Assembly (NCBI RefSeq): GCF_002953935.1 | Contig: NZ_CP026514.1 | Span: forward strand, 992,001 to 1,056,000 | Direction: 5' to 3' | Source of the DNA: Arthrobacter sp. PGP41 | GTDB taxonomy: Bacteria > Actinomycetota > Actinomycetes > Actinomycetales > Micrococcaceae | Length of the DNA stretch: 64,000 nucleotides | Shown here: positions 10,177 through 64,000 of the stretch, piece by piece | Numbering within the stretch: the stretch's first letter is position 1 | How the letters are laid out: each line of letters opens with the position of its first letter | The notes under the pieces: generated by a model | The model's input: only the letters and a program-made list of their open reading frames with translations | Databases searched by the model: none | Told to the model about the DNA's origin: nothing | Made by a program: the position numbers and the translations under genes

Positions 10177-11211
10177 TTAGGCTTTCGAGGCGGCCGTCCG
10201 CCGCCGCGGGGTTGACTGCGCGGGCTTTAGGTCCGCGGCCGCCTTGCGGTCCGCCGAAGCCGTGTCGACAAGGAAGCGCGCGGTGGCCGCGTCCGTGACC
10301 AGCGTGTCCACCCACCCGCCGGCCGCTGCTGCCCTGATGGCCCGGTGCTTTCGGGCGCCGCCGGCTACCGCCCACCGGTGCCGGGCGTTGCGAAGCTGCT
10401 CCCGGGTGATGCCGACCACCAGGTCCTCGAGTTCCGAGTCGATCGGGTTCCCGTCGGCGTCGAGGAAGTGCAGGCAGACTTCCCCAACCGCCCCGAGTGC
10501 ACGCACACGGGCGAACTGCTCGTCCGAGAAGAAATTGTCCCCCGGGCGCAGGTCCGGATCGATCTCGTCAGCGCCGATGCCCACCAGTGCCAGATCCACC
10601 GAGTCGAGCATCTGCAGTGCTTCCCGGGCATGCGGATCGCCGCTCAGCAGGAGTTCCTTCATCTCCGGGCTTGCTGCCACGCCGGGCGTCCGGAGGAAAA
10701 CGGGCTGCGCCCCGGTGAGGGCGGCGAACTGCTGGGTGGACCGTGCCGTGGCGTGCTGCAGCGAGGGCGGGCCGAGGTCGCCCAGCGTTTCGACGACGTG
10801 CTTGCACCGGGTGCGCATGGGCAGCATGGTGTCGATCATCATCCGCATCGTCTTGCTCCAGGAGGTCAACGCGATCGTGCTCACCTCGAAGGCCACGTCC
10901 TGCAAAAGGGAGGCCATCGTGTGCGCCAGGTCCTTGCCCAGCTCCTGCTCGTTGTCGCTGACCGCGTCGATGATGTGGACCTCGCTGAGTCCGTACAGCG
11001 CCTCCACGCGTTCCTCAAGCTCCGCATGGATATGCGGGGGAACAGCCACCACGGTCCGCACGATCGACGCGTCCTCGGCCTGGGCCAGCAGCCTCGACAC
11101 CCGGGATTGCGAAATCTGCAGACGTTTGGCGATATCCGTCTGGCGCATCTCGTGGGTATGGTAAAGGCGCGCAACCTTGATCATCAGTCGCTGCGCGTCG
11201 ATGTCATTCAT
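10177..11211 (-). CDS. SorC/DeoR-family transcriptional regulator
   Basis: A 344-residue regulator with an N-terminal helix-turn-helix (about 22-45: MRQTDIAKRLQISQSRVSRLL) and a C-terminal sugar-phosphate-binding domain (LALVGIGADE, GEVCLHFLDADGNPI, AVAGGARKHRAI). Proteins of this family sense phosphorylated sugars or polyols; EryD of erythritol catabolism is one. GGAG precedes ATG 11211. It is divergent from the GlpD/kinase operon and co-oriented with the BKACE, epoxide hydrolase and importer transcripts, so it probably controls all of them. The C-terminus ends in a basic tail (TPRRRTAASKA). Confidence 0.92.
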   Translation of the reverse strand: MNDIDAQRLMIKVARLYHTHEMRQTDIAKRLQISQSRVSRLLAQAEDASIVRTVVAVPPHIHAELEERVEALYGLSEVHIIDAVSDNEQELGKDLAHTMASLLQDVAFEVSTIALTSWSKTMRMMIDTMLPMRTRCKHVVETLGDLGPPSLQHATARSTQQFAALTGAQPVFLRTPGVAASPEMKELLLSGDPHAREALQMLDSVDLALVGIGADEIDPDLRPGDNFFSDEQFARVRALGAVGEVCLHFLDADGNPIDSELEDLVVGITREQLRNARHRWAVAGGARKHRAIRAAAAGGWVDTLVTDAATARFLVDTASADRKAAADLKPAQSTPRRRTAASKA

Positions 11212-50734: not shown

Positions 50735-51119
50735 GGGTAAGGCCCTCGGCGAGAGCTGCGAACCCAGGCAGCCGCCCCTTCTCCGTCTATACCGGCCAAG
50801 ACCAACGGGCGGTAAAGACAAAGACGATAAGTGCCCGCCGCCCCTGCACCACGTCGGAAACATGCAAGGCCCTCGCTGAGTGAGCAAGGGCCTTGCCGTT
50901 CGGTACTCCTGGCTACCAACCTTGTGAACCGTAAGACCAATCTAACTGCCCTTGCTCAGCAATGACTCAAGATTGATCATCAAAATATCCAAGAATTACA
51001 TGTCTTCATGATGAAGTTCGATGCTCTTATGTACCTGTGGCTCGTACTGCTCGTGGGTCGCTTTCCGGTTGCCATCGTGTCGGACTGCGTTCACTGCTAC
51101 GTGTAGGCATAATTGCGGC
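50735..51119. other. intergenic stretch with one hairpin
   Basis: 385 bases without a credible gene. It holds the hairpin at 50864-50896, and from about 50940 the DNA becomes AT-rich (ATGACTCAAGATTGATCATCAAAATATCC). A CATAAT box (51108-51113) precedes the EcsC start by six bases, suggesting a leaderless or very short-leader promoter. Confidence 0.5.
50864..50896 (+). terminator. hairpin, probable terminator of the nitrilase operon
   Basis: Perfect 10-bp arms GCAAGGCCCT (50864-50873) and AGGGCCTTGC (50887-50896) with a 13-base loop, 130 bases after nitrilase 2. There is no T run, so termination efficiency is uncertain. Confidence 0.6.
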
Positions 51120-52244
51120 ATGACAGAACCCTCGACGTACGAGCTCGAAGCATGGCAGAACATCCAGCGGTTCAAAGGCCGACCGCTCTCACAGGCGATA
51201 CGAAATGCGGGCGAGCAGGTGGCCATCGGCGCTGAGAAGATCGGTGAGCGCGCCACGCAGTATTTGGAGGAAAGGCCAGGAGCTCAAGCTACCGTTGTCC
51301 GGGGACAGGAGCTCGTTTCCAGGGGAGCTCACGTGCTCGGCACCGGGGCTCGAAAAGCGGCCGAGGCCATTCCGGACGGAATTTCCGATTGGAGCGGCGC
51401 TGCATTTACATCGATGCGCAAATCGGTGGCTCGGGTCTCAAGGGCAGGACTCTCACCAAAGCAAGTGGTAGCGAAGCACAGGAAGCGAAAGCATGCCGTC
51501 AGTAACCTTTCCGACCTGCGACGTTTGGACCTCGAGCAGGTCGACGCTGTTCGTGGACGAGGGGCGAGCTGGGGATATCCGCTTGCTGCTGCGCTTTCTG
51601 GAGCCGGTGCAGGGCTGGCGATCTCCGGCGGGGAACTTGCAGTCCCCCTCACTGGTGGTGCCGCGGCAGCACCTTCGGGCGCCGTAATCGCCGGCGCCTT
51701 CGTTGGCGACGCCGCATTAGTTCTGGCGCTTGGGTCCCGCTGCGTCGGCGAAGTGTCGTTGCACTACGGCTACGATCCGGAAGAACCTGCTGAAAAGCTC
51801 TTCATCATGTCTGTCGTCAATGCCGGAACGGCTGTGTCCGCCGGTGCGAAGTCTGCCGCACTGGCCGACATTTCACGCCTCACCCAAGCTCTTGTCCGCA
51901 AAAAGACTTGGGAAGTTCTGGATAAATCGATCGTCTCTCAGGTCTCGAAGCAATTCGCGAAGGCATTCGGCGTTCGCCTTACGAAGCAGGGGCTTGGCAA
52001 GGTTGTTCCCGTCGCAGGAATTCTCGTCGGCGGGACCCTTAACTGGACCACTTTGGAAGGTATCTTTGACGCCGCCAATATCGCATACCGTCGGCGGTTT
52101 CTCCTTGAAAAGTACCCGCGCCTTGAAGAGGGGGAATCACAAGGATGGCTTCCTTATGAGGACCAATCCGGCCTAGACGACTCCGACGAACCTATCAGCG
52201 TGCTCGGTGAGATCGTCGAGGCGGGCGGCCCCGACCTGCACTGA
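51120..52244 (+). CDS. EcsC-family protein
   Basis: A 374-residue protein starting MTEPSTYELEAWQNIQRFKG, the usual EcsC entry helix. A glycine/alanine-rich hydrophobic stretch (about 170-225) could insert in membranes; the C-terminal half (RLTQALVRKKTWEVLDKSIVSQ, TKQGLGKVVPVAGILVGGTLNW) is the conserved EcsC region. Base composition is less GC-rich than the neighbours. No ribosome site is seen; a CATAAT box six bases upstream suggests leaderless translation. Function poorly known. Confidence 0.82.
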   Translation: MTEPSTYELEAWQNIQRFKGRPLSQAIRNAGEQVAIGAEKIGERATQYLEERPGAQATVVRGQELVSRGAHVLGTGARKAAEAIPDGISDWSGAAFTSMRKSVARVSRAGLSPKQVVAKHRKRKHAVSNLSDLRRLDLEQVDAVRGRGASWGYPLAAALSGAGAGLAISGGELAVPLTGGAAAAPSGAVIAGAFVGDAALVLALGSRCVGEVSLHYGYDPEEPAEKLFIMSVVNAGTAVSAGAKSAALADISRLTQALVRKKTWEVLDKSIVSQVSKQFAKAFGVRLTKQGLGKVVPVAGILVGGTLNWTTLEGIFDAANIAYRRRFLLEKYPRLEEGESQGWLPYEDQSGLDDSDEPISVLGEIVEAGGPDLH

Positions 52245-52682: not shown

Positions 52683-55600
52683 CTACCCCTCGCTTACCTC
52701 GTAAACGCTGCCCAACGCCGGGAAGTGGATCAGGGTCCGCAACACCGGTTTTCCTGTCGCAGCGAGAACAGCGCCGCGGTAGGCAGCCATTTGGCCAAGG
52801 TACTTTTCCCGGATATGGCCTTCGGGATCGCTGCCCGGATATGTCTTGTGATCAACAAGCACGTAGCCCTCCGGCCCCTCAAGCAGAAGGTCAATCCAGC
52901 CTTCCATCACCCTGTTCTCCGGGCGCCAGCCGATTGCAGCCTCACGATGCCGGATCCAGGCGGGGAACTCTGCGTCGAGGTACTCCTCGAAACGGGTGCC
53001 TGAGGTCACGAGAAGCGCAGGGGAGACCAGATGTCCGATCTTCCAGCGGCCAATGATTTGTTCCGCAAGGCCTAGCTGCTGACCGCCGTCCAGAGCACCG
53101 TATTCGGTGCCGAGGTAGGCATGGACGGCGTTTCCCACGGCGCCCCATTCGTCCGCACCATGCTCGGCGAGCCGAGAGCCAAGTTCGGCAGCCAAGGACA
53201 CGGTCGCCTTGTCCCCGTCGGAACCCTCTGAGCTGGCGGTCAGACGCGCCGGAAGATACGCGGCGGGAGGTAGCTGACTCGGCGCGTCTGTGAAGTGTGC
53301 GGCCCCTGCGGGTACGGCCGCAGTCTGCTCCACCGGTTCGAGTGTCGCAACCCGGGCCGGAAAGACGCCGCCGCCGGCAACGTTCAAGGTCCCCGAGGCG
53401 CCTGGCGACTCAGGGTCCTCGAACAGGTCCAACCCGGGGTCCCGAACATCGGGTTCCTCGGTTGCAGACCAGGACAGAAGGGATTCGACGCCGAGATTGT
53501 TCAGCAGGCCAGGGACGTTTCCCTTGCCCGTCAGCACATTCGTCTCCACAGCCCGGGTCATTCCGACGTACATCAGCCGTGCCATGTTCCGCCGCTCGCG
53601 CTCCTCGGCGTTCAAGGCAACCTGGCTCTCCTTGCCGCGGGCATCCAGCGGAGAACCGGAGTAGGGGAAAGGGCTGGGCCAGAAGCGGATCCAGCGTCCG
53701 GCGAGGGGCTGCTCAAGATCAAGCGTTCCGTCCTGTTCCACGGCGGCACCGAACGCCGCGAAGCGCAGGTCCTTGTCCAGTGCTTCCATGACCACCACAG
53801 GCCACTCCAGCCCCTTGGCTTTGTGGTAGGTGAGGACGTTGACGACGTCCGGGCCGGCGTTCTCAGCCGACTGCTGCTGCTCCGAACCGAAGAACGTCAG
53901 GAATCCCCGCAGGGTGGCGGGCGAGCGGAGCGCCAGGCAACGCTCGTAGTAGTCCTCAAGGGCGCCGCGGAAAGCGTCGAGATTGCGCAGCCGTGTCGCC
54001 GGCGCGGACCAGGACTTGATTAGCCGCGGAAGTCCCAGCGCACCGACCACCGCTTCGAAGATTTCGGTCGGCGTGGCCGTCTTGGCCTGCGTTCGCAGCG
54101 CATCCAGCGCTGTCAGCAATGGTTCCGTTCTCCAGCGGTCCAGCACCGTTGAGGGCTCGACGGCGGACAGCAGTTCCCGCTGCCATGTCAGGTTCGCAGG
54201 ATGACCGGGGTGGAGGGCCACGATCTCGGTGAGTGCCACCGTGTCGTAGCCGTCCGCCACATACGCCATTCCTGCGCGGGCCAACTGGATTTCACGGGCG
54301 TCGGCAAGCTTGCGCGGATTGCGGCTTGCCCGGATACCCAGGCAGTCAAGGGCCGCGGAGAGCGCCTCGACATCGGCGTTGGACCGGGTCAACACAGCAA
54401 TGTCTCCCGGGCTGAACTCTGTGCGGCGCGCCAGGAACTCAGCAACGCCGGCCGCCGTGGCACGCAAGCGCTCGCCATCGTTGCTTTGGGGACGCGTCCA
54501 GGCCTCGAGGCTTCCGGGTGACCAGTCTTTGTGATCCTCCGGCAGCTCGAGGTGCACGGTGTCGTAAGCCATGCCGTGCTGGGCGAACGCGGGCTCGAAG
54601 ACCGCGTTGGACAGCTCGACGACGGCCTGGTGGGACCGCCAGGACTGTGAAAGCTGCTGTCTTGTTGGCACGCGGTCAACGACCGCCTGCATCAGGTCGG
54701 GGTCGGTGCCGCGGAACTCGTAAATCGACTGCTTCGGATCGCCCACCCACACGGCCTCTTTCACCAGGCTGCTGAGCTGGAGGAAGAGTTCCAGCTGCAG
54801 CGGGCTCGTGTCCTGGAACTCGTCGACAACAAGGAAGCTGATGCGCCGGCCAAACGATGCGCGGAAGGCCTCGCTGTTCCGGGCGAGTTGGAGGACGAGG
54901 GTCTCCTGGTCCACGAAGTCCATGAGCCCGTGAAGCCGCTTGAACTCGGCGTAGGTCAGGAGGCATTCGTTGGCACAGGCAAAGATGCGCCGGATGTATT
55001 GCTCCAAGTCGGAGTGGAACGCCGGGTTGGAGAGAAGTCCCTCATGAATGCGTTCCCGCAGGTCCCAGAAGATCGACTTGATCGGCGCGGCAGGGGCGGA
55101 CGCGATGAAACCGCGCCAGATCTCCCATGGTGTGTCATCGACGTTGACCGCCTGGTCGAGCTTCTGGATCACCTTGGGGTACTGCTCGCAGAAAGCCTTC
55201 GTGGTGATTTTCGCGGCTTTTCCGTCCGGACCGATTCCCGTCCTCGCAACGGTATCGAGCTGGATCCGCCGCTCGATGAACTCCCGGTGCCATACCTGCC
55301 GGTCGTCCTGGCCCGGCTCGTCCAGCAGTTCCCGGAGCCCGCGCCAGGACTGCTCGGCACAGGCGGCCAGATCGTCGGCATCAAGGAGATTGGTGCGCGC
55401 GGCGTCTACGATCGCGCGAACAGTCTCTTCCCACGGCTGGGCGTCCCGGGCTCCGTTTCCGTCAGTGCCCATCCTGCGGGCGATGGGCAGGATATCGGCT
55501 CCGTGCTCAGCGAGGATGGTGTCTGTGGCCAGGTGGAAGATCCCGTGGAGTTGCTCCTCTCCGATCACTTCAAGTGCCGGGGAGAGCCCTGCATCGATGG

Positions 55601-55916
55601 CATGCTCCTGAAGCAGTTTTCCGCAGACGCTGTTCACTGTGCCGATAAGGCTCGCCGGCAGTTGCTGCGCCGCGAGCTGCAATGACTCGGCCAGCTGGAG
55701 GTCTCCAGACGAGGCGGCTGAACCCGACTGGTCCAGAAGCCGCGCCCCGATGCGCTCCTTCAGCTCACCAGCCGCCTTCTTGGTAAAGGTTGTGGCCATC
55801 ACGGCGTCGGCAGGCAGTCCGTCCTCGATCTTCTCGGCAATGACCTGGGTGAGATGGAACGTTTTGCCGGTCCCGGCACTCGCCGAGACCATGGTGACGT
55901 TGTCCAGCAGGTTCAT
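52683..55916 (-). CDS. AddA-like UvrD helicase with C-terminal RecB nuclease
   Basis: A 1077-residue SF1A helicase-nuclease. Walker A MVSASAGTGKTF (residues 9-20), DEXX box VVDEFQDTSPLQLELF, motif around YHKAKGLEWPVVVME, and a C-terminal PD-(D/E)XK domain with GWID (Asp1009), VDHKT (Asp1022, Lys1024) and GQMAAY (QxxxY). This is the layout of AddA and of AdnB. ATG 55916, after AAGGGGGA, overlaps the AddB-like stop (ATGA). It would process double-strand ends together with the AddB-like protein. Last gene of the cassette. Confidence 0.93.
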   Translation of the reverse strand: MNLLDNVTMVSASAGTGKTFHLTQVIAEKIEDGLPADAVMATTFTKKAAGELKERIGARLLDQSGSAASSGDLQLAESLQLAAQQLPASLIGTVNSVCGKLLQEHAIDAGLSPALEVIGEEQLHGIFHLATDTILAEHGADILPIARRMGTDGNGARDAQPWEETVRAIVDAARTNLLDADDLAACAEQSWRGLRELLDEPGQDDRQVWHREFIERRIQLDTVARTGIGPDGKAAKITTKAFCEQYPKVIQKLDQAVNVDDTPWEIWRGFIASAPAAPIKSIFWDLRERIHEGLLSNPAFHSDLEQYIRRIFACANECLLTYAEFKRLHGLMDFVDQETLVLQLARNSEAFRASFGRRISFLVVDEFQDTSPLQLELFLQLSSLVKEAVWVGDPKQSIYEFRGTDPDLMQAVVDRVPTRQQLSQSWRSHQAVVELSNAVFEPAFAQHGMAYDTVHLELPEDHKDWSPGSLEAWTRPQSNDGERLRATAAGVAEFLARRTEFSPGDIAVLTRSNADVEALSAALDCLGIRASRNPRKLADAREIQLARAGMAYVADGYDTVALTEIVALHPGHPANLTWQRELLSAVEPSTVLDRWRTEPLLTALDALRTQAKTATPTEIFEAVVGALGLPRLIKSWSAPATRLRNLDAFRGALEDYYERCLALRSPATLRGFLTFFGSEQQQSAENAGPDVVNVLTYHKAKGLEWPVVVMEALDKDLRFAAFGAAVEQDGTLDLEQPLAGRWIRFWPSPFPYSGSPLDARGKESQVALNAEERERRNMARLMYVGMTRAVETNVLTGKGNVPGLLNNLGVESLLSWSATEEPDVRDPGLDLFEDPESPGASGTLNVAGGGVFPARVATLEPVEQTAAVPAGAAHFTDAPSQLPPAAYLPARLTASSEGSDGDKATVSLAAELGSRLAEHGADEWGAVGNAVHAYLGTEYGALDGGQQLGLAEQIIGRWKIGHLVSPALLVTSGTRFEEYLDAEFPAWIRHREAAIGWRPENRVMEGWIDLLLEGPEGYVLVDHKTYPGSDPEGHIREKYLGQMAAYRGAVLAATGKPVLRTLIHFPALGSVYEVSEG

Positions 55917-58555
55917 GAAAAGTCCCCCTTCAATCCGCAGAGCACACCGAAATCGCAGAAACGGCAAGGCGGTTTTATGTGGTGTCTGCCAGCGTCGGCG
56001 TCCACCTGGGCGCGGTCAGGCACGTTTGCCGTGCGGGCGTCGTCGGCCGGCTGGGCTGCGGTGATCCGGCCCGCGAGCACCTCTTCAACAGTGAATTCGG
56101 CGGCCGCCACAGCCTGTGTCCAAAGCAGCGCGGGCTCAACAGCCCGGGGCAGGGGCGTTCCGAAGTGCGGATGGGCCGACGCGAAAGCGCCCTGTTTCAG
56201 CAGGTAGAACGCCGTCGGGTCATCGGGCGGGGTGTCGCCGGAATGGAGGGCCCACTGGTAGAGCGCTAGCTGGAGGGCGGTGCCCTGCTGGATTTCCTCG
56301 CGGCGGTACTTCGCGTTGTTGGTCCACTTGAGGTCGACGACGACGGTGCGGCCTTCCGCGTCGATGCCCACGGCGTCTGCGCTGCCCTTCACCTGGACCG
56401 TGAATTCCTCGCCGTCGGCGGACAGAAGTACGTCTTTTTCGAATTCCCGCTCGACGTCCTGGAGCGTTATGCCGCCCCTCGAGAGCTGTCTGAAGAAGGT
56501 TCCGATCGAGGCCACGAGGGTGGCGGTGACGGCGGCACGGCGACGCAACTGGCCCGGCAGCAGCAGTTCCGAGGCATAGTGGGGAATCAGTTCGTCGACG
56601 GTCAGCCGGATCTCTGTTTCGTCGGGAACTGCGCGATTCTCGGGGCGAAGGCGGTGGTGGAGGACCTCCACCACCTTGTGCGCGAAGCTCCCGAGCATTT
56701 GGTTGTCCATGGGGATGCCAGCGGCGTCGGCAACGTGCAGCTGTGACTTCTTCTGCAGCACCCAGGCAAGGGAACAGCCGAGCAGCGTCGTTAGCTGGCT
56801 GAAGGACAGCCGGTCCGGTCGTAGCGAGGGATTCGGGCCAACTTCGTGGACAGGCGGAGGTGGAACGGGCAGGTGCCGGTCCACGGGAACCAGGTGGGCG
56901 CTCCGCCCGGCGAACCGCCAGCGGCCGTCGGGGCCGGTGAGCTCGGCCGGCGTCGTGCTCAATAGAGCGATGCGTTCGGACAATGACTTCGCAGTTCCCT
57001 CTTCCGGACGCGGGGGCTGGGCGGCGGCCAGTGCCTCCAGGAGCGGATTGCTTTCGGTCCGCTCGCCATTGAGCTGCTGGGCCTGGATGATGACCAGGTT
57101 CCGGCACCGGCCGGCGGCTGCGAGCGTCTGCCCGGCCGAAAGCGCCGCGAGGCCTTCCGGTGACGGCAGGTGGACACCCACCCTGGCGAGGGTCTCGACA
57201 TCGTGCGCGTCCCAGCGCCGTCCAGGAGCCATGGATCCACTGCGGAAGCCCCACCACAGGACGTTCTCGACGTTTCCACCGAGTTCGTGCAGATGGTTGA
57301 GCCGGAGCCAAGGACTGGCTTCCGCGGCGACTAAGGGGCTGGACGTTGGCGTCACCACGGCGGAGATGATGCGCCGGAGCTCGCGGCGGGAGACCGACGG
57401 GAGGGGCGCGACGAGCTCCAGAATCCGCTGTAGTTGGGTGGACGGGGCCTGGAAGACGGGGTCGACCGCGGCGCGGGCCCGCAGCCGCCCGGCGAACCAC
57501 GCCGCGCTCCCCGCTAGGTCGGCTCCGCTGGCGCTGTCCCCGGTGATCAGGCCGGCGTTGAACGTACGGTCGAGGATGGCGGCCAGATCATGACCAAGCT
57601 GCTCGTCGTCGGCGATCTTCCGGATGGCCTCCTTCCAGGCGGCGCCGCCTGTGCCGGGTGCCTGCTGGAGGGCCTGGAGGAGGTGGTGCGCTGCCCGTCG
57701 CTTGACCGGGCTGCCGGGGAGCGACAGGAACTCAGCCAGGAGCCGTACGTCGGCCGGGGCCCAGATGAGCTCGAAGAAGAGGGGAATTAGCTGGTCCTGT
57801 ACCCGCCACGGGGAGCGGGCGCCCACACCCAGGCGGGGCAGTCCATGCCCGGCAAGGTACTGGTCAAGGACGGAGGTGCTGTCCGAGCACACCACAGCTG
57901 TTCTGGCGTTGTCTCCGTTGGAAAGCCAACGGGCTGCCTGCTCGGCGGCCTCCCACTCTGTTTCGGCTGTGAGAATTGTCAGGCGCGGCTGGACAGTTGC
58001 CTGAGTCGCATCGCTGACTTGGACGCCGTGCCCGCGAAGTTTGGCGATGATGCGTTGCCAGATTGCGGGGAAGGATGTCTCGGGGTGCTGGAGGATCAGC
58101 TGGTCGATCCCGAGCGGCAGGGGAGTGTCGAGGGCGTCAAGCAGTTCCAGGGTGTCGTCCGCAAGCGAGGGGGCCAAATATCCTTGGGCATGTTCCGCGT
58201 CAGTCAGCGTGCGAAGCAACGGCGAAGGACCCGTGAAGTCGGGACCGTTTTCGGGCAGCGTGCCGTCCCATCCGTTGCTGACGGCGTCGTCCCGGCCGTC
58301 GAGGAGCTCCCGGGCGGTGGACCATGGATCTACCTGGAGCGAGGCATGGAACCATTGGTCCGGTGTGTCGATGGACTGAAGCCGCTGCAGGTACTGGCCG
58401 ATGCGCTCGGCGTGCGGGGTGTCGGGGCGGGTAATGCCCAGCCGTGTCTGCAGCAGGGTGGTCAACCCCTTGCGGCCTACCCGCACATGGTTCAGGCCAG
58501 GCTCGGTGTAAGCCCACGGGGCTCGGTCCAGAAGCCATCCGAACTCAACGATCAT
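55913..58555 (-). CDS. AddB-like Fe-S cluster nuclease
   Basis: An 880-residue partner of the AddA-like protein. The nuclease domain has GSFAHKVVE (His626), GSADAVG (Asp727) and VVVDLKW (Asp741, Lys743). Four cysteines with AddB spacing, Cys594 then Cys864-x2-Cys867-x5-Cys873, should hold a 4Fe-4S cluster that locks the nuclease fold. The N-terminal P-loop is gone (GRKGLTTLL in place of GxxGxGKT), so it is probably not an ATPase, unlike B. subtilis AddB. ATG 58555 follows GGGGG. Confidence 0.9.
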   Translation of the reverse strand: MIVEFGWLLDRAPWAYTEPGLNHVRVGRKGLTTLLQTRLGITRPDTPHAERIGQYLQRLQSIDTPDQWFHASLQVDPWSTARELLDGRDDAVSNGWDGTLPENGPDFTGPSPLLRTLTDAEHAQGYLAPSLADDTLELLDALDTPLPLGIDQLILQHPETSFPAIWQRIIAKLRGHGVQVSDATQATVQPRLTILTAETEWEAAEQAARWLSNGDNARTAVVCSDSTSVLDQYLAGHGLPRLGVGARSPWRVQDQLIPLFFELIWAPADVRLLAEFLSLPGSPVKRRAAHHLLQALQQAPGTGGAAWKEAIRKIADDEQLGHDLAAILDRTFNAGLITGDSASGADLAGSAAWFAGRLRARAAVDPVFQAPSTQLQRILELVAPLPSVSRRELRRIISAVVTPTSSPLVAAEASPWLRLNHLHELGGNVENVLWWGFRSGSMAPGRRWDAHDVETLARVGVHLPSPEGLAALSAGQTLAAAGRCRNLVIIQAQQLNGERTESNPLLEALAAAQPPRPEEGTAKSLSERIALLSTTPAELTGPDGRWRFAGRSAHLVPVDRHLPVPPPPVHEVGPNPSLRPDRLSFSQLTTLLGCSLAWVLQKKSQLHVADAAGIPMDNQMLGSFAHKVVEVLHHRLRPENRAVPDETEIRLTVDELIPHYASELLLPGQLRRRAAVTATLVASIGTFFRQLSRGGITLQDVEREFEKDVLLSADGEEFTVQVKGSADAVGIDAEGRTVVVDLKWTNNAKYRREEIQQGTALQLALYQWALHSGDTPPDDPTAFYLLKQGAFASAHPHFGTPLPRAVEPALLWTQAVAAAEFTVEEVLAGRITAAQPADDARTANVPDRAQVDADAGRHHIKPPCRFCDFGVLCGLKGDFS

Positions 58556-58626
58556 TGTTGCCCCCAAGTGTTGTCTGCTGGCTTTGTACTACGGTATGGC
58601 AGGGTCCGTGCGGTAGTGCCATCGGA

Positions 58627-59223: not shown

Positions 59224-59810
59224 TTTTCCCGTTTCGCTTCCAGCAGGGCCTCGGCCAGGATGATGGCGTGCCGTGCGTCCTGGAGATCGCTGCGCAGGCC
59301 CGGGTCCGGGTTGGCCACTGCAACCGCGTCCGGCGTCCCGCTGAGTTCTCCGATCGCCCTGCTCAGGCTCTCGCGTTCCTTCGCAATCATCCGGGATGAC
59401 GTCAGTTTGATTTTGCTCTTCTCCAGGCCGCGGAGGGAGCTGTTGATCTCCGCGCAGCGCGCGCGGACCGCGGCCAGCCGCACGTCGACCCGCTGCGCCC
59501 TCTTCCGGAACAGGGGCTCCATTTTGAGCGCAACCTCGTGAAGTTCCATCAGGGCAGTGCTCCGGTCGGGTTCGCCGGCGGCATGTGCCAACAGCTCTTC
59601 GCACACGTGAAGCCGCTGCTCCCAGAGCTGAATACCGGTGGTGTTCTGCCTCAGTAGCAGTGCCAGGATCTCAACAATTTCGTTCAGGGTGTTGCGCCGG
59701 GCCTTGAGTTTGGCGCTCGCGGCATCAAGGCGGCCGATGAACTCTTCGTAGTTGTCCACCGGCGCCGCACTTTTGGTCGGCCACGGCAGCCTGCGTGGCT
59801 CCGCCATCAT
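59220..59810 (-). CDS. helical (coiled-coil) protein of unknown function
   Basis: A 196-residue protein, almost wholly helical and rich in Leu, Arg, Glu, Ala (FIGRLDAASAKLKARRNTLNE; RVDVRLAAVRARCAEINSSL). No catalytic motif. Its start overlaps the helicase-sigma stop (ATGA) and its stop overlaps the two-TM gene, so stoichiometric expression is expected. A binding partner or sigma-controlling role is possible but unproven. Confidence 0.75.
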   Translation of the reverse strand: MMAEPRRLPWPTKSAAPVDNYEEFIGRLDAASAKLKARRNTLNEIVEILALLLRQNTTGIQLWEQRLHVCEELLAHAAGEPDRSTALMELHEVALKMEPLFRKRAQRVDVRLAAVRARCAEINSSLRGLEKSKIKLTSSRMIAKERESLSRAIGELSGTPDAVAVANPDPGLRSDLQDARHAIILAEALLEAKREK

Positions 59811-62347
59811 GCTGCACCGGCCTCGGTGCTTGTGGATCCGGCGACGCCGTCGAAGTTGTACTCGCGTAGGGACTGGGATCGTTCTGGTTCTCTGAGCAGA
59901 GCCATGGTCTTCGACTCGATCTGGCGGATGCGCTCGCGGGTGACGCCGTAGGCCTTGCCGATGGCATCCAGGGTCTTTTCCTCGCCGTCGTCCAGGCCGA
60001 AACGCATCGCAATGACTCCGGCCTCCCGTTCAGTCAGCGTGTCCAGGACCGCATGCACCTGGGCCGTCAGCTGTTCCTTGGCGATCTGGTCAACGACATC
60101 CACGTGCCAGGGATCGAGGAGCTGGTCCGCCAGCGGCTCGAGGCCCCCCTTGCCGTCCGGGACGAGGTAGTCCAGCGAACGTACGGGCTGGTCCAGCGCC
60201 AGAAGATACTCCACTTTTGCAGTCGACTGATCCGTGAGCTTGCCGAGTTCCTCAAGGTTGTATTCGAGCCCCTTCCGGGCCGCTTCACGCTGAATTGCCT
60301 GCACTTTGTGGATCTGCTCCACCATGTGGACCGGGAGCCGGATGACCCGAGCCTGGTCGGCCAGCGCCCGGGTGACAGCCTGCCGTATCCACCACGTCGC
60401 GTAGGTGGAGAACTTGTAACCCAGGGTGTAGTCGAACTTGCACACGGCCCGGTGCAACCCGATATTGCCCTCCTGGATCAGGTCCAGCAGGTCCATGCCG
60501 TGATACACGTACTTCTTGGCGATGGACACCACCAGCCGGAGGTTCGCCTCAAGCAATGCGTCCGCAGCCCGCTCGCCCAACTGTGCGATCATCCGGAGCT
60601 CCCGGGTCTCGCGGCGCCCGCGGGCAGGGCCGTCCGCCAGCAGGTGGGCAGCGTACAGGCCGGCCTCGATGTCCTTGGCGAGCTCCACTTCCTGCTCGGC
60701 TGTCAGCAGGTCCGCGCGGCCTGCCCGCTGGAGGTAGTCAGACACCCCGTCGTCGCTGAAGCCCTCCAGCCCCTGGAGTTCCTCACTCCAGCCGGAGTCC
60801 TCGAGGTCAAACGACGTAGGCGCGCTCTCGTCGTCCTCCTCCACGGGAGGCTCCACCGCCGACTCCAGATCACTGCCGACCTCCGGTCCAGCGCCGTTCC
60901 CGGGCGTACCCGCCGCGGGCTCACCGGGCTCGGGCCGTGAAGCCACTTCAGGGTCGGCCTGGCGGAGGAACTCCTGCAACCCGTCCTGGTCCGTCCTGAT
61001 GTCGAAGAACCCCACGTTGCGGGCGAAGGGCAGAACCTTGCCCAGGAACTCCTCGCCTTGGACGTCCGGGTCCTCCACGGTGCCCTTGGAGTAGAGGACA
61101 ACCAAACGTCCGGGCCGCCCGTCGGCCTTCTTGCGGATAACGCGGCCCAGCCGCTGCACCATCTGCCGCTGGCTCCGGTTGGCTGCAACGATGATCCCGA
61201 GGTCGGCCTCGGGTACGTCGATGCCTTCATCGAGGAGCCGCGGCGCGGTGAGTACCTGTGATGCGCCGGAGCGGAAATCCTCCAGGCCCTGCCGGCGCTC
61301 ATCTTTGGCCATGCCGCTGAACACGGCCGAGGCGGTCGACCCGAGGGACGTATACAGCTCCTGCGCCCGCCGGGCGGAGTCCTGGGTCTGGGTGAACACC
61401 AGCGTCCCGCGGGACCCATCAACGGTTTCCTTCAGTGCTGCAAGTGCCAGATACTTCGTCTTGGCTTCGGCCAGTAGGGTGAGCCGCGATGACATTGCCC
61501 GCATGTACCTGCGCGCGATGGTTGCTTCCCGGCTGGGCGAATCCGAAGCCGCCAGCGCGGCCACGGCAGTGATGAACTGGGGGAAGGGCCGCCGCGGGAT
61601 GCCGGCGTACGTCTCCAGGTTTCGCGCCGCCTCCACCATCACCGTCGAGAACTCGTCGTAGTCATTCTGTTCCGACGGCAGCAGGTCAACGCCGACCAAA
61701 GCGATGTCGAACGGGGCGATGACCTGGTCCTTCAGCGCACGGTCGTACCAGAGGTTGTAAATGACGCCGCCGAAGTAGGGGGTCAGGAGGTTCTCGTGCT
61801 CACCGTCCGCCCGTTCGAACGTGGCTGTCAGCCCAAGCCGCCAGGCGTACCCTTCCTGCAGGGCACCGGTAAACATTGGTGCCGCATAACGGTGGCACTC
61901 ATCAGCGATGATCAGTCCCGCCTTGTGCGAGCGGAGCGTCTCCCGGTTGGACGCGGAGTGGACGATGGCCACGAGGATGTCGACGTCGTCGAGGGAATCG
62001 GCCCGGCCGTCGCCAAGGGCACCACGCCGAGCGGCGGGCAGGTCCCGGCGCAGGGACACCAGCCATTGGCGCTGAAGCTCGGCCGTTGGCACCAGGATCA
62101 GGACTTTGATGCCCTGCCGGACTGCCTCGAAAGCGGCGGCGATTCCGACGCGCGTCTTGCCGGAACCGGTCACGGCCTCCACCACGCCGCGGCGCGCATT
62201 CGAGTGCCAGGCCTTCAGCGCCTCCTGCTGCCACGGATACAGGAAGCCGTAGTCGTAGGAGGCAGGCACCGCCGCGGGCGGAGCCTGGACGGGCACCCGC
62301 GGAAGCGTCGCGACCGGGTGGGACCCGGCGTCGGCTAGTTCTGGCAT
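59807..62347 (-). CDS. SF2 helicase fused to a complete sigma-70 factor
   Basis: An 846-residue two-part protein. Part 1 (about 35-465) is a DECH-box SF2 helicase: Gln40/41 in YPWQQEAL, Walker A TGSGKTR (60-66), ADECHRY (148-154), LTAT (173-176), LVFTQT (316-321), EGIDVPEAD (374-382) and QRLGRVIRK (398-406). A Pro/Glu/Asp-rich linker (466-530) follows. Part 2 is SigA-like: region 1.2 (DYLQRAGRADLLTAEQEVEL, 537-556), region 2 with ANLRLVVSIAKKY and YATWWIRQAVTRALADQAR (649-667, keeping the -10-contact Gln and Thr), region 3, and region 4.2 GVTRERIRQIESKT (801-814). ATG 62347 follows GGGGGAT. The DNA shows no stop or frameshift between the parts. It may bring RNA polymerase to helicase-processed DNA, or the reverse. 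Confidence 0.93.
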   Translation of the reverse strand: MPELADAGSHPVATLPRVPVQAPPAAVPASYDYGFLYPWQQEALKAWHSNARRGVVEAVTGSGKTRVGIAAAFEAVRQGIKVLILVPTAELQRQWLVSLRRDLPAARRGALGDGRADSLDDVDILVAIVHSASNRETLRSHKAGLIIADECHRYAAPMFTGALQEGYAWRLGLTATFERADGEHENLLTPYFGGVIYNLWYDRALKDQVIAPFDIALVGVDLLPSEQNDYDEFSTVMVEAARNLETYAGIPRRPFPQFITAVAALAASDSPSREATIARRYMRAMSSRLTLLAEAKTKYLALAALKETVDGSRGTLVFTQTQDSARRAQELYTSLGSTASAVFSGMAKDERRQGLEDFRSGASQVLTAPRLLDEGIDVPEADLGIIVAANRSQRQMVQRLGRVIRKKADGRPGRLVVLYSKGTVEDPDVQGEEFLGKVLPFARNVGFFDIRTDQDGLQEFLRQADPEVASRPEPGEPAAGTPGNGAGPEVGSDLESAVEPPVEEDDESAPTSFDLEDSGWSEELQGLEGFSDDGVSDYLQRAGRADLLTAEQEVELAKDIEAGLYAAHLLADGPARGRRETRELRMIAQLGERAADALLEANLRLVVSIAKKYVYHGMDLLDLIQEGNIGLHRAVCKFDYTLGYKFSTYATWWIRQAVTRALADQARVIRLPVHMVEQIHKVQAIQREAARKGLEYNLEELGKLTDQSTAKVEYLLALDQPVRSLDYLVPDGKGGLEPLADQLLDPWHVDVVDQIAKEQLTAQVHAVLDTLTEREAGVIAMRFGLDDGEEKTLDAIGKAYGVTRERIRQIESKTMALLREPERSQSLREYNFDGVAGSTSTEAGAA

Positions 62348-62425
62348 TTCATCCCCCATTGGACGGTTCTGATCTGGTGCCTGAAGAGTATTGCGGGGCA
62401 CCGACAATTTAGGTGAGCAGCGCCA

Positions 62426-64000
62426 CTAACCGTCTTCCAGCACAGGTTTCCACGCCTGGCTCCGCGATAGCGCGAGCTTGAGCTCGCGGCCGCCGGCCTC
62501 CTCCAGCAGCCCGGAATGACCCACAACCACCAGTAGGCTGCGTGCCCGGGACAGCCCGACGTAGAGCTGCTCCCGGGCCCGGTCCATGTCCTTGAAACCG
62601 TTCACGCAGAGAACAACAACAGACCGTTCCAGGCCCTTGAAACCCAGCACATGGCCGTAGAACTCACCGTCGTTGGCGTGGAAGTCCCGCCAGTACTCTT
62701 CCGTGGCGCCGCGCTTAAAGTAGTCCAAATGAATGGGGTGGCGGTCCTTGGTGGTGAGAAGCGCGATCTGGTTGTTCGCCCAGCCCTCGTCGATCAGCGA
62801 ATCCAGGCAGTCCCCGGCGATCTCGAGCGCGTCCTCGGTTGGGCAGTCCACGAACCGGACGGGCAGGCCCGTGCTTCCGCGGGGCTTGAAGTATTCGCCG
62901 GCGAATGGCTTGAACGTCTCAGCGATCTTGACGGTGTTCCGGAGGTTATCGTCGATGTGGATGGGCACGAAGGTGGCCATCGGCCCGCTGGTGAGGTCCG
63001 CCGTCGCGCCTCCCCAGCGCTGGTAGACGTCCTGCCGGTCGTCCATGAACGCGTATACCTCACCCGCGTACGGGTCGCTGGTGCACGCGAGAAGGGCGTC
63101 CCACCACAGGGGCGCGAAGTCCTGCGCTTCATCGACGACGACGGCGTCCAGCCGCTCGTGCGGCTCCAGGCCGGCTGCCAGCTCCTTCAGGAGGCGGGGC
63201 ATCTCGACGTCGAAATAGTCCTGCCCCGAGCCGTCCGGGACTCCCAGCCCGCGCACGTATTCGTGGAACTCGCCCGTGAACACCGGCTTGGCTTGCCGCT
63301 TCCATGTCCCGACGCGGTCCTGGAGGTATTGCCCGAGGCCTTTGTTGTAGCAGAAGAGGCCTACGCGTTTGCCCTGCTTGCTGAGCAGCTTGGCCTTCTC
63401 GACGGCGAGCCACGTCTTTCCGCTGCCCGCGCCGCCGGTGAAACGGACCCTGTTGAGTGAGCGGGTTGCCTGGAGCAGCACGGACTGGCGTTCCGTGAGG
63501 TGGTCCTGCTCTGCCTCGTCCTCGTGCGAGGTGGTGGAAGGTACGACGGCGGTGTCCAGGTTTCCGCCCAGCTTGCGGACGATGCGTTCCAGGAAGGCCG
63601 GGGCCAGCGGGGAGGCGCCGCCGCCTTCGTTTTCGATGGCTTGGCGGACGAGGTCGGCGGGGGACTTGCTGCCGGTCTGGTCGAGGATGAGCGACCGGGG
63701 GCAGCCTGCCATGGTCCAGTCCCGCGGCACGTCGGTGTAGGGCAGGCTGACCATGTAGACGCAGCGGCTGCTCAGGCGCGCACCGAGCTGGTTCTCCAGC
63801 CAGTTCTTGAGGGCGTGGAGTGAGCTCTGGGACTGCGCCACGGGGCTTTGGATCTTGCGTCTCTGGGTGCGGTCCGACTGGTACCACTGCCCGTCCGTGA
63901 TGCTGACCTGGCCGCCCTTGACCTCGATGGCAGCCATGCCAACGTTGGGCCAGAGGACCAGCAGGTCAATCTCGTATTCATTCCGGCCGTCGCGGACGTG
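62426..64000 (-). CDS. NERD-domain UvrD-like helicase (5' end beyond the window)
   Basis: The visible 524 residues begin inside a nuclease-related domain: NEYEIDLLVL and MAAIEVKGG supply the Asp and ExK of a PD-(D/E)XK core. A UvrD-like helicase follows: FTGGAGSGKTWLA (Walker A), VVVDEAQDFAPLWW (Walker B), LTTKDRHPIH, and VGLSRARSLLVVVG (motif VI). The 5' end lies outside the window. The stop is 78 bases from the helicase-sigma start on the same strand, so it is probably the first or an early gene of the cassette. NERD-helicases occur in DNA-repair and phage-defence settings. Confidence 0.9.
   Translation of the reverse strand, partial: HVRDGRNEYEIDLLVLWPNVGMAAIEVKGGQVSITDGQWYQSDRTQRRKIQSPVAQSQSSLHALKNWLENQLGARLSSRCVYMVSLPYTDVPRDWTMAGCPRSLILDQTGSKSPADLVRQAIENEGGGASPLAPAFLERIVRKLGGNLDTAVVPSTTSHEDEAEQDHLTERQSVLLQATRSLNRVRFTGGAGSGKTWLAVEKAKLLSKQGKRVGLFCYNKGLGQYLQDRVGTWKRQAKPVFTGEFHEYVRGLGVPDGSGQDYFDVEMPRLLKELAAGLEPHERLDAVVVDEAQDFAPLWWDALLACTSDPYAGEVYAFMDDRQDVYQRWGGATADLTSGPMATFVPIHIDDNLRNTVKIAETFKPFAGEYFKPRGSTGLPVRFVDCPTEDALEIAGDCLDSLIDEGWANNQIALLTTKDRHPIHLDYFKRGATEEYWRDFHANDGEFYGHVLGFKGLERSVVVLCVNGFKDMDRAREQLYVGLSRARSLLVVVGHSGLLEEAGGRELKLALSRSQAWKPVLEDG

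Follow-up and report, generated by a model that had tools for sequence, protein, structure and literature searches.

The 64,000-base window analyzed here, bases 992001-1056000 of the 4.27-Mb single-contig genome of the soil actinobacterium Arthrobacter sp. PGP41, contains on its minus strand a gene that joins an XPB-type helicase to a SigA-like sigma factor. Its open frame spans window positions 59807-62407 (866 codons) and is unbroken across the helicase and sigma halves. Residues are numbered here from the first codon of this frame, TTG 62407. The likely start is ATG 62347, giving a gene at 59807..62347 and a fusion protein of about 846 amino acids, because the longer frame shows little constraint over its residues 1-49 (omega 0.49 and 0.86 in two pairs) and because a conserved block, GGGGGATGAA-ATG, stands at this position in six loci, the present one included. 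The helicase half, of superfamily 2 (SF2), occupies 60998..62260 (residues 50-470), with Walker A at 62153-62170 and the DECH motif at 61892-61903. It is followed by an acidic linker at 60755..60955 (residues 485-551), which is predicted to be a disordered, flexible stretch of 67 residues (structure confidence score pLDDT <50). The sigma half then comprises, likewise on the minus strand, region 1.2 (60650..60748; residues 554-586), region 2 with the core-binding, melting and -10 contact residues (60347..60556; residues 618-687), a diverged region 3 (60098..60340; about residues 690-770, by alignment) and region 4 with the -35 contacts (59888..60049; residues 787-840).

Pfam families were matched in the expected order, namely ResIII (7e-23), Helicase_C (3e-17), Sigma70_r1_2 (8e-10), Sigma70_r2 (2e-20) and Sigma70_r4 (2e-15), and all three sigma regions exceeded the Pfam cut-offs. 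Together with the open frame, this bears out an earlier sequence-only reading of the locus, which had proposed one polypeptide of helicase and sigma factor; its start at 62347 is supported by the weak constraint and the shared block described above. The same reading called the sigma factor complete, and this was overstated. The Pfam scan of the fusion protein revealed no family of sigma region 1.1, whose position is occupied by the helicase and the acidic linker, and alignments of PDB sigma structures start at residue 482 or beyond. Region 1.1 is poorly conserved among actinobacteria. The region 3 family PF04539 did not reach the threshold of E 0.001 in the fusion protein but did so in four of seven relatives tested; region 3 is recognizable by alignment and retains the extended -10 residues. 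The tip of the sigma 3.2 finger is altered. Overall, the observation of that reading is confirmed, and its interpretation finds partial support.

Two genes joined by read-through or misassembly would offer an alternative explanation, and the sequence-only reading had named consistently split homologues as the finding that would refute the fusion. Helicase and sigma are both present, in order, in 192 of 203 homologue rows (187 clusters from databases and 16 proteins from genomes, with some overlap), from several families of Actinomycetes; ten of the other 11 are at most 712 amino acids long and two lack a sigma match. Many fused rows sit on megabase-size contigs, and the arrangement recurs in separate genome collections. 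One database row, P0044 from a 5.3-kb metagenome contig, does resemble a chimera within its sigma part. It was excluded as a probable chimera from the 65-row constraint counts but retained in alignment A1, and thereby in the 66-row counts of motifs, sigma residues and linkers, in an earlier helicase tree and in the sigma identities. Since the fusion occurs independently elsewhere, we consider an artefact refuted for practical purposes.

The protein search gave 772 matches at E 1e-30 or better out of 7,994 scored candidates. The best 120 of them are mostly full fusions (53-97% identity), and the nearest named homologues among the matches listed belong to Pseudarthrobacter and Arthrobacter. A second search, with the distant fusion G678 as query, gave 474 matches; helicase and sigma domains occur together in most of the best 120, where named entries come from Dermacoccus, Propionibacteriaceae, Nocardioides, Geodermatophilus and Modestobacter, among others. 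Within the Micrococcaceae, the helicase was found at E 1e-60 in 10 of 295 genomes, every time in a frame of at least 827 codons. At the level of the order it occurs in 12 of 396 genomes and is fused in 8 of these 12; in a phylum-level sample it occurs in 29 of 396 genomes, with frames >800 only in the present genome and in G002. A scan of a named collection, confined to the best 80 of 531 relatives, yielded 16 fused loci out of 79 of the helicase family, all from Actinomycetes (Micrococcaceae, Microbacteriaceae, Brevibacteriaceae, Geodermatophilaceae and Propionibacteriaceae). In one of the 79 the sigma occupies the next frame, which overlaps, and 62 have no full sigma, a few of them being truncated at contig ends. 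In Propionibacterium acidifaciens (L188:9773-13034), helicase and sigma lie in two overlapping frames. Two plasmids, each about 430 kb in size, carry a fusion of 55% identity in the vicinity of dnaE and ssb. Viral contigs gave no match to the fusion protein; the helicase alone found seven weak matches there (E 2e-16 to 1e-8), among which sigma was not looked for. Where such proteins are named, the usual annotation is 'sigma-70 family RNA polymerase sigma factor' or 'RNA polymerase primary sigma factor'. Consequently, the helicase half escapes notice.

Purifying selection acts on both halves, as judged from ratios of nonsynonymous to synonymous substitution rates (dN/dS) of 0.05-0.10 for the helicase and 0.08-0.18 for the sigma half (8 pairs each). 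In structure as well as in sequence, the helicase half matches XPB of the transcription factor TFIIH best. The features expected of an XPB/Rad25 protein were found, namely Walker A, D-E-x-H, motif VI and the XPB fold, with a score of 28.2 bits for PF16203 (cut-off 27). In a set of 66 diverse fusions, no variation was seen at the residues of Walker A, D-E-x-H and motif VI.

The sigma half is most like mycobacterial SigA. Its positions were labeled with E. coli K-12 rpoD as reference, using literature residue lists for E. coli sigma70. In this numbering W434, R436, Q437, R441, H455, R584, E585, R588 and Q589 are identical in all 66 fusions. Of the 17 DNA-contact positions, 13 do not vary at all among 65 fusions, and the promoter-contact residues are the same as in SigA. 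Mean conservation is 0.98 at these 17 positions vs. 0.67 for the whole sigma half; in 20,000 random draws of 17 positions, no set was as conserved. For seven core-contact positions the mean is 0.985 (equalled by 1 of 20,000 sets), while the 3.2 finger, at 0.65, is no more conserved than average. Core-binding and melting residues of regions 1.2 and 2 are retained in full fusions, and the sigma half is predicted to bind core RNA polymerase. An additional SigA-like sigma factor is present in all 16 fused genomes checked, which speaks against an essential housekeeping role of the fusion.

The linker is acidic in every one of the 66 rows (13-32 D/E vs. 0-14 K/R) and shows dN/dS values of 0.19-0.47 (6 computable pairs). 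Since the host SigA is also acidic just ahead of region 1.2 (31 D/E and 19 K/R in its first 142 residues), the acidity of the linker may derive from a SigA.

Variants of the family occur. Two proteins from Arthrobacter relatives, P0100 (= G326; L086:7684-10617) and P0101, carry a NusG-type KOW tail, which matches NusG at E 1.7e-12 in P0100 and was compared by eye in P0101. Another branch carries an additional helicase-associated (HA) domain (PF03457). By eye, many tails among P0127-P0187 hold repeated PRRA-type motifs, and one branch within P0097-P0120 holds repeated acidic DPFA motifs. Seven XPB-like helicases of Rhodococcus/Rhodococcoides (L161, L173, L174, L179, L182, L184 and L191) end in a sigma-region-4-like helix-turn-helix (HTH) alone, as detected with a model built from fused sigmas. 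When seven HTH-only proteins, six of this set and L204, were compared to Pfam, three exceeded the region 4 cut-off, one fell below it and three were unmatched. L179 adjoins AddAB-like genes. Stand-alone sigmas related to the fused ones occur in L035, L036 and L037, each altered in one or both W of the region 2.3 pair; the one in L036 adjoins AddAB.

The fusion may or may not have arisen once. A tree built from the helicases of 37 fused and 14 solo rows, rooted by midpoint only, unites the fused rows with one solo row inside (98/94), and a strict single clade of fused helicases obtained p 0.052. An earlier tree with fewer fused branches placed the G678 helicase beside a solo row, outside the main fused clade. 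Some fused sigma halves are close to SigA: that of G326 is 80.6% identical to the SigA of its own genome, compared to 42.4-62.6% in 13 other genomes, and the best SigA identities of rows P0101, P0126 and P0137 are 76, 81 and 73%. These identities are suggestive of repeated capture of the host SigA, yet the trees do not settle it. Single-clade tests for fused sigmas gave p 0.348 and 0.067 with larger sets and p 0.219 and 0.090 with reduced ones; a further reduced set groups the G326 sigma with other fused sigmas at 99/99. Renewed capture is thus possible.

The neighbors of the fusion gene lie on the same strand. Upstream is a gene for a NERD nuclease and UvrD-type helicase (62426..64000, continuing beyond the window end). 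Downstream follow P196 (59220..59810; 196 amino acids, probably a coiled coil by eye) and P198 (58627..59223; about 198 amino acids, two membrane helices by hydropathy), P196 overlapping both the fusion gene and P198 by 4 bases; neither protein matched a family in the Pfam, PADLOC or NCBIfam scans. An AddB-like PD-(D/E)XK nuclease (55913..58567) and an AddA/RecB-like UvrD helicase with nuclease domain (52683..55967) complete the order. Based on gene spacing, these six genes apparently form an operon. An EcsC-family protein (51021-52244) adjoins the end of the AddA-like gene. In make-up, the last two genes resemble AddAB, a UvrD-type AddA with nuclease domain beside a PD-(D/E)XK AddB, but the AddA-like protein scores far below the NCBIfam addA equivalog cut-off (154.6 vs. 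707.65 bits). No distinct operon promoter could be assigned: a block 5' of the NERD-helicase gene, lying outside the window (L029, about 11130-11200), is conserved in six loci and may serve as a control site, but it shows no clear -35/-10 by eye and has no copy in the window.

Farther upstream, some 11-24 kb from the fusion gene, are genes for McrB and McrC, for a type IV PLD-helicase and for a type IIG-like pair, followed by an integrase. The fusion gene is located in a defence island in the present genome. In the stretches read around 16 fused genome loci, AddAB-like genes were found in 7 and the NERD helicase in 6, and other fused loci adjoin Hhe-like, GmrSD, ZacC or type IIG proteins. In both plasmids and in G172, the gene after the fusion (L050:17935-18486, L051:17927-18478 and L087:7045-7638) encodes a small protein whose motif pattern resembles, by eye, that of PD-(D/E)XK resolvases; one of these proteins had no PDB and no Pfam match.

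The association with AddAB is optional in both directions. At E 1e-60 the AddB-like protein was found in 20 of 295 Micrococcaceae genomes, yet in only 3 of the 10 with the fusion; in one of these three (G150) both genes are far apart, while G180 and G282 carry another AddB version that the AddB query missed. In the order-level sample, 38 of 396 genomes have the AddB-like protein at E 1e-40. The AddA/AddB-like pair appears in 30 other loci (L259-L288) as a sigma-independent unit, at times with a NERD helicase or restriction genes. An obligatory core system of sigma and AddAB, suggested by the L036 sigma next to AddAB and by the 7 fused loci with AddAB-like genes, was rejected because these 30 loci, one of them read over 8.4 kb, lack both sigma and fused helicase and because 9 of the 16 fused loci have no AddAB in the stretch read.

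What might such a protein do? Because a promoter-reading sigma is flexibly tethered to an XPB motor, the simplest reading is that the motor is delivered to promoters. We propose, with a probability of roughly 40%, that the fusion is a promoter-directed DNA motor borne by RNA polymerase and likely serves defence against invading DNA. The sigma half would carry the fusion on host RNA polymerase to ordinary promoters, where the motor, while polymerase-bound, would pull or open promoter DNA, invading DNA being the presumed target. The ordinary holoenzyme has sigma 1.1 close to the downstream channel, and in the eukaryotic initiation complex it is downstream DNA on which XPB works. With its tether attached N-terminally to region 1.2, the motor would take up the sigma 1.1 position, near downstream DNA. 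In loci that have them, the AddAB-like and NERD nucleases encoded nearby may degrade the engaged DNA. A bolder version, which appears doubtful to us, is a bacterial TFIIH principle: sigma would take an XPB translocase along to promoters, and the pair would act as a promoter-guided weapon, detecting invading DNA at its sites of transcription and opening it for nucleases. Given the island and the neighbor counts, defence is likelier than a purpose in transcription only. Of 17 reference defence proteins, matches were obtained in 8 of the 16 named fused loci vs. 1 of 20 control stretches (Fisher p 0.003), although this test is rough because the references came from neighbors or islands of other fused genes and the controls from other genomes.

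Several observations weigh against the proposal. A looser filter gives a defence-type neighbor in 9 of 16 fused vs. 9 of 63 unfused loci, and the defence neighborhood is partly a trait of the helicase family. Judged by the neighbors scanned, several fused genes sit among ordinary metabolic or transport genes, and none of the 30 other AddAB-like loci has a sigma. Of the two halves, the sigma evolves faster. Since SigA keeps identical contact residues, their conservation points to maintained function, neither to purpose nor to new specificity, and initiation by the fusion may be abnormal as the 3.2 finger tip diverged.

A serious rival, though we think it rather unlikely, does without defence: the fusion would be a TFIIH-like factor, an auxiliary SigA-type holoenzyme with an XPB motor for ATP-dependent promoter opening at mobile-element or stress genes. 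The same motor motifs, contact residues and likeness to SigA and XPB speak for it, as do the fused genes among ordinary genes and on two plasmids near dnaE and ssb, and the NusG-like KOW tail of two relatives. Defence-type neighbors above control disagree with it, and since the promoter-contact residues equal those of SigA, no distinct regulon would be expected. If the sigma half were a mere DNA or polymerase tether for a restriction helicase, without initiation, the region-4-like HTH of the seven Rhodococcus/Rhodococcoides relatives (only partly recovered by Pfam, see above), the changed 3.2 finger and the altered W pair of the three stand-alone cousins would all fit; full fusions, however, keep regions 1.2 and 2 with melting and core-contact residues, and we regard this reading as improbable. 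Still less credible is an integrated decoy, in which the sigma half baits phage anti-sigma or polymerase-hijacking proteins whose binding triggers helicase and nucleases. A sigma of housekeeping type in the faster-evolving half would suit a bait, and the 80.6% identity in G326 would fit renewed capture. Yet a bait does not need invariant DNA-contact residues, and the trees leave such capture unsettled. We thus retain the polymerase-borne defensive motor as our preferred reading.

In bacteria, promoters of SigA are generally regarded as needing no ATP motor to open, while eukaryotes use XPB. Through a conserved sigma-XPB chimera, ATP-driven promoter action could be tested in a bacterium with a single gene; if defensive, the chimera would represent immunity aimed at the act of transcription. 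Mfd, RapA and HelD are likewise DNA or ATP motors that act with RNA polymerase. In the open-access full-text literature searched, outside which lie most subscription papers and all preprints, no paper on a helicase-sigma fusion was listed; one of the searches ranked part of its 24,494 matches. Excerpts of related reports mention a DndH variant with a sigma-related HTH (PMC10853773), a sigma-HTH-like domain in BrxL (PMC12839542) and an unrelated engineering use (PMC12857756). MzaA of the MZA anti-phage system (NF041931, PDLC02203), named as a sigma factor in the excerpt of PMC9523054, is a sigma-70 protein of a defence system, and the sigma halves align. However, the fusion scores 306 bits against an NCBIfam cut-off of 800, the match is limited to residues 601-850 in the sigma half, and no other Mza models appeared in the PADLOC lists for the six operon proteins scanned. 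In a DISARM-like locus (L034:2709-9798), a 737-amino-acid MzaA-like sigma, whose N-terminal part of about 390 amino acids has no Pfam match, stands directly ahead of DrmA- and DrmB-like genes. With PbeA of the Pbe/CxC systems, an HKD nuclease-SF2 helicase according to the excerpt of PMC10853773, the fusion shares an SF2 core that matches the PADLOC PbeA models; compared to PbeA as described there, it lacks an HKD/PLD nuclease domain in the Pfam scan and has a sigma in its place. Group 1 sigma factors (SigA/HrdB/RpoD) share regions 1.2, 2 and 4 with the fusion, at about 55-61% identity to actinobacterial SigA and with core, -10 and -35 residues retained, but the fusion differs by its N-terminal helicase, its diverged region 3, the missing region 1.1 match and the presence of another SigA in the genome. 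Its helicase half, finally, for which no TFIIH-like partner is known or was sought, is alike in fold and sequence (21-29% identity) to XPB/Rad25 of TFIIH and archaeal XPBII, from which it differs in being joined to a sigma factor.

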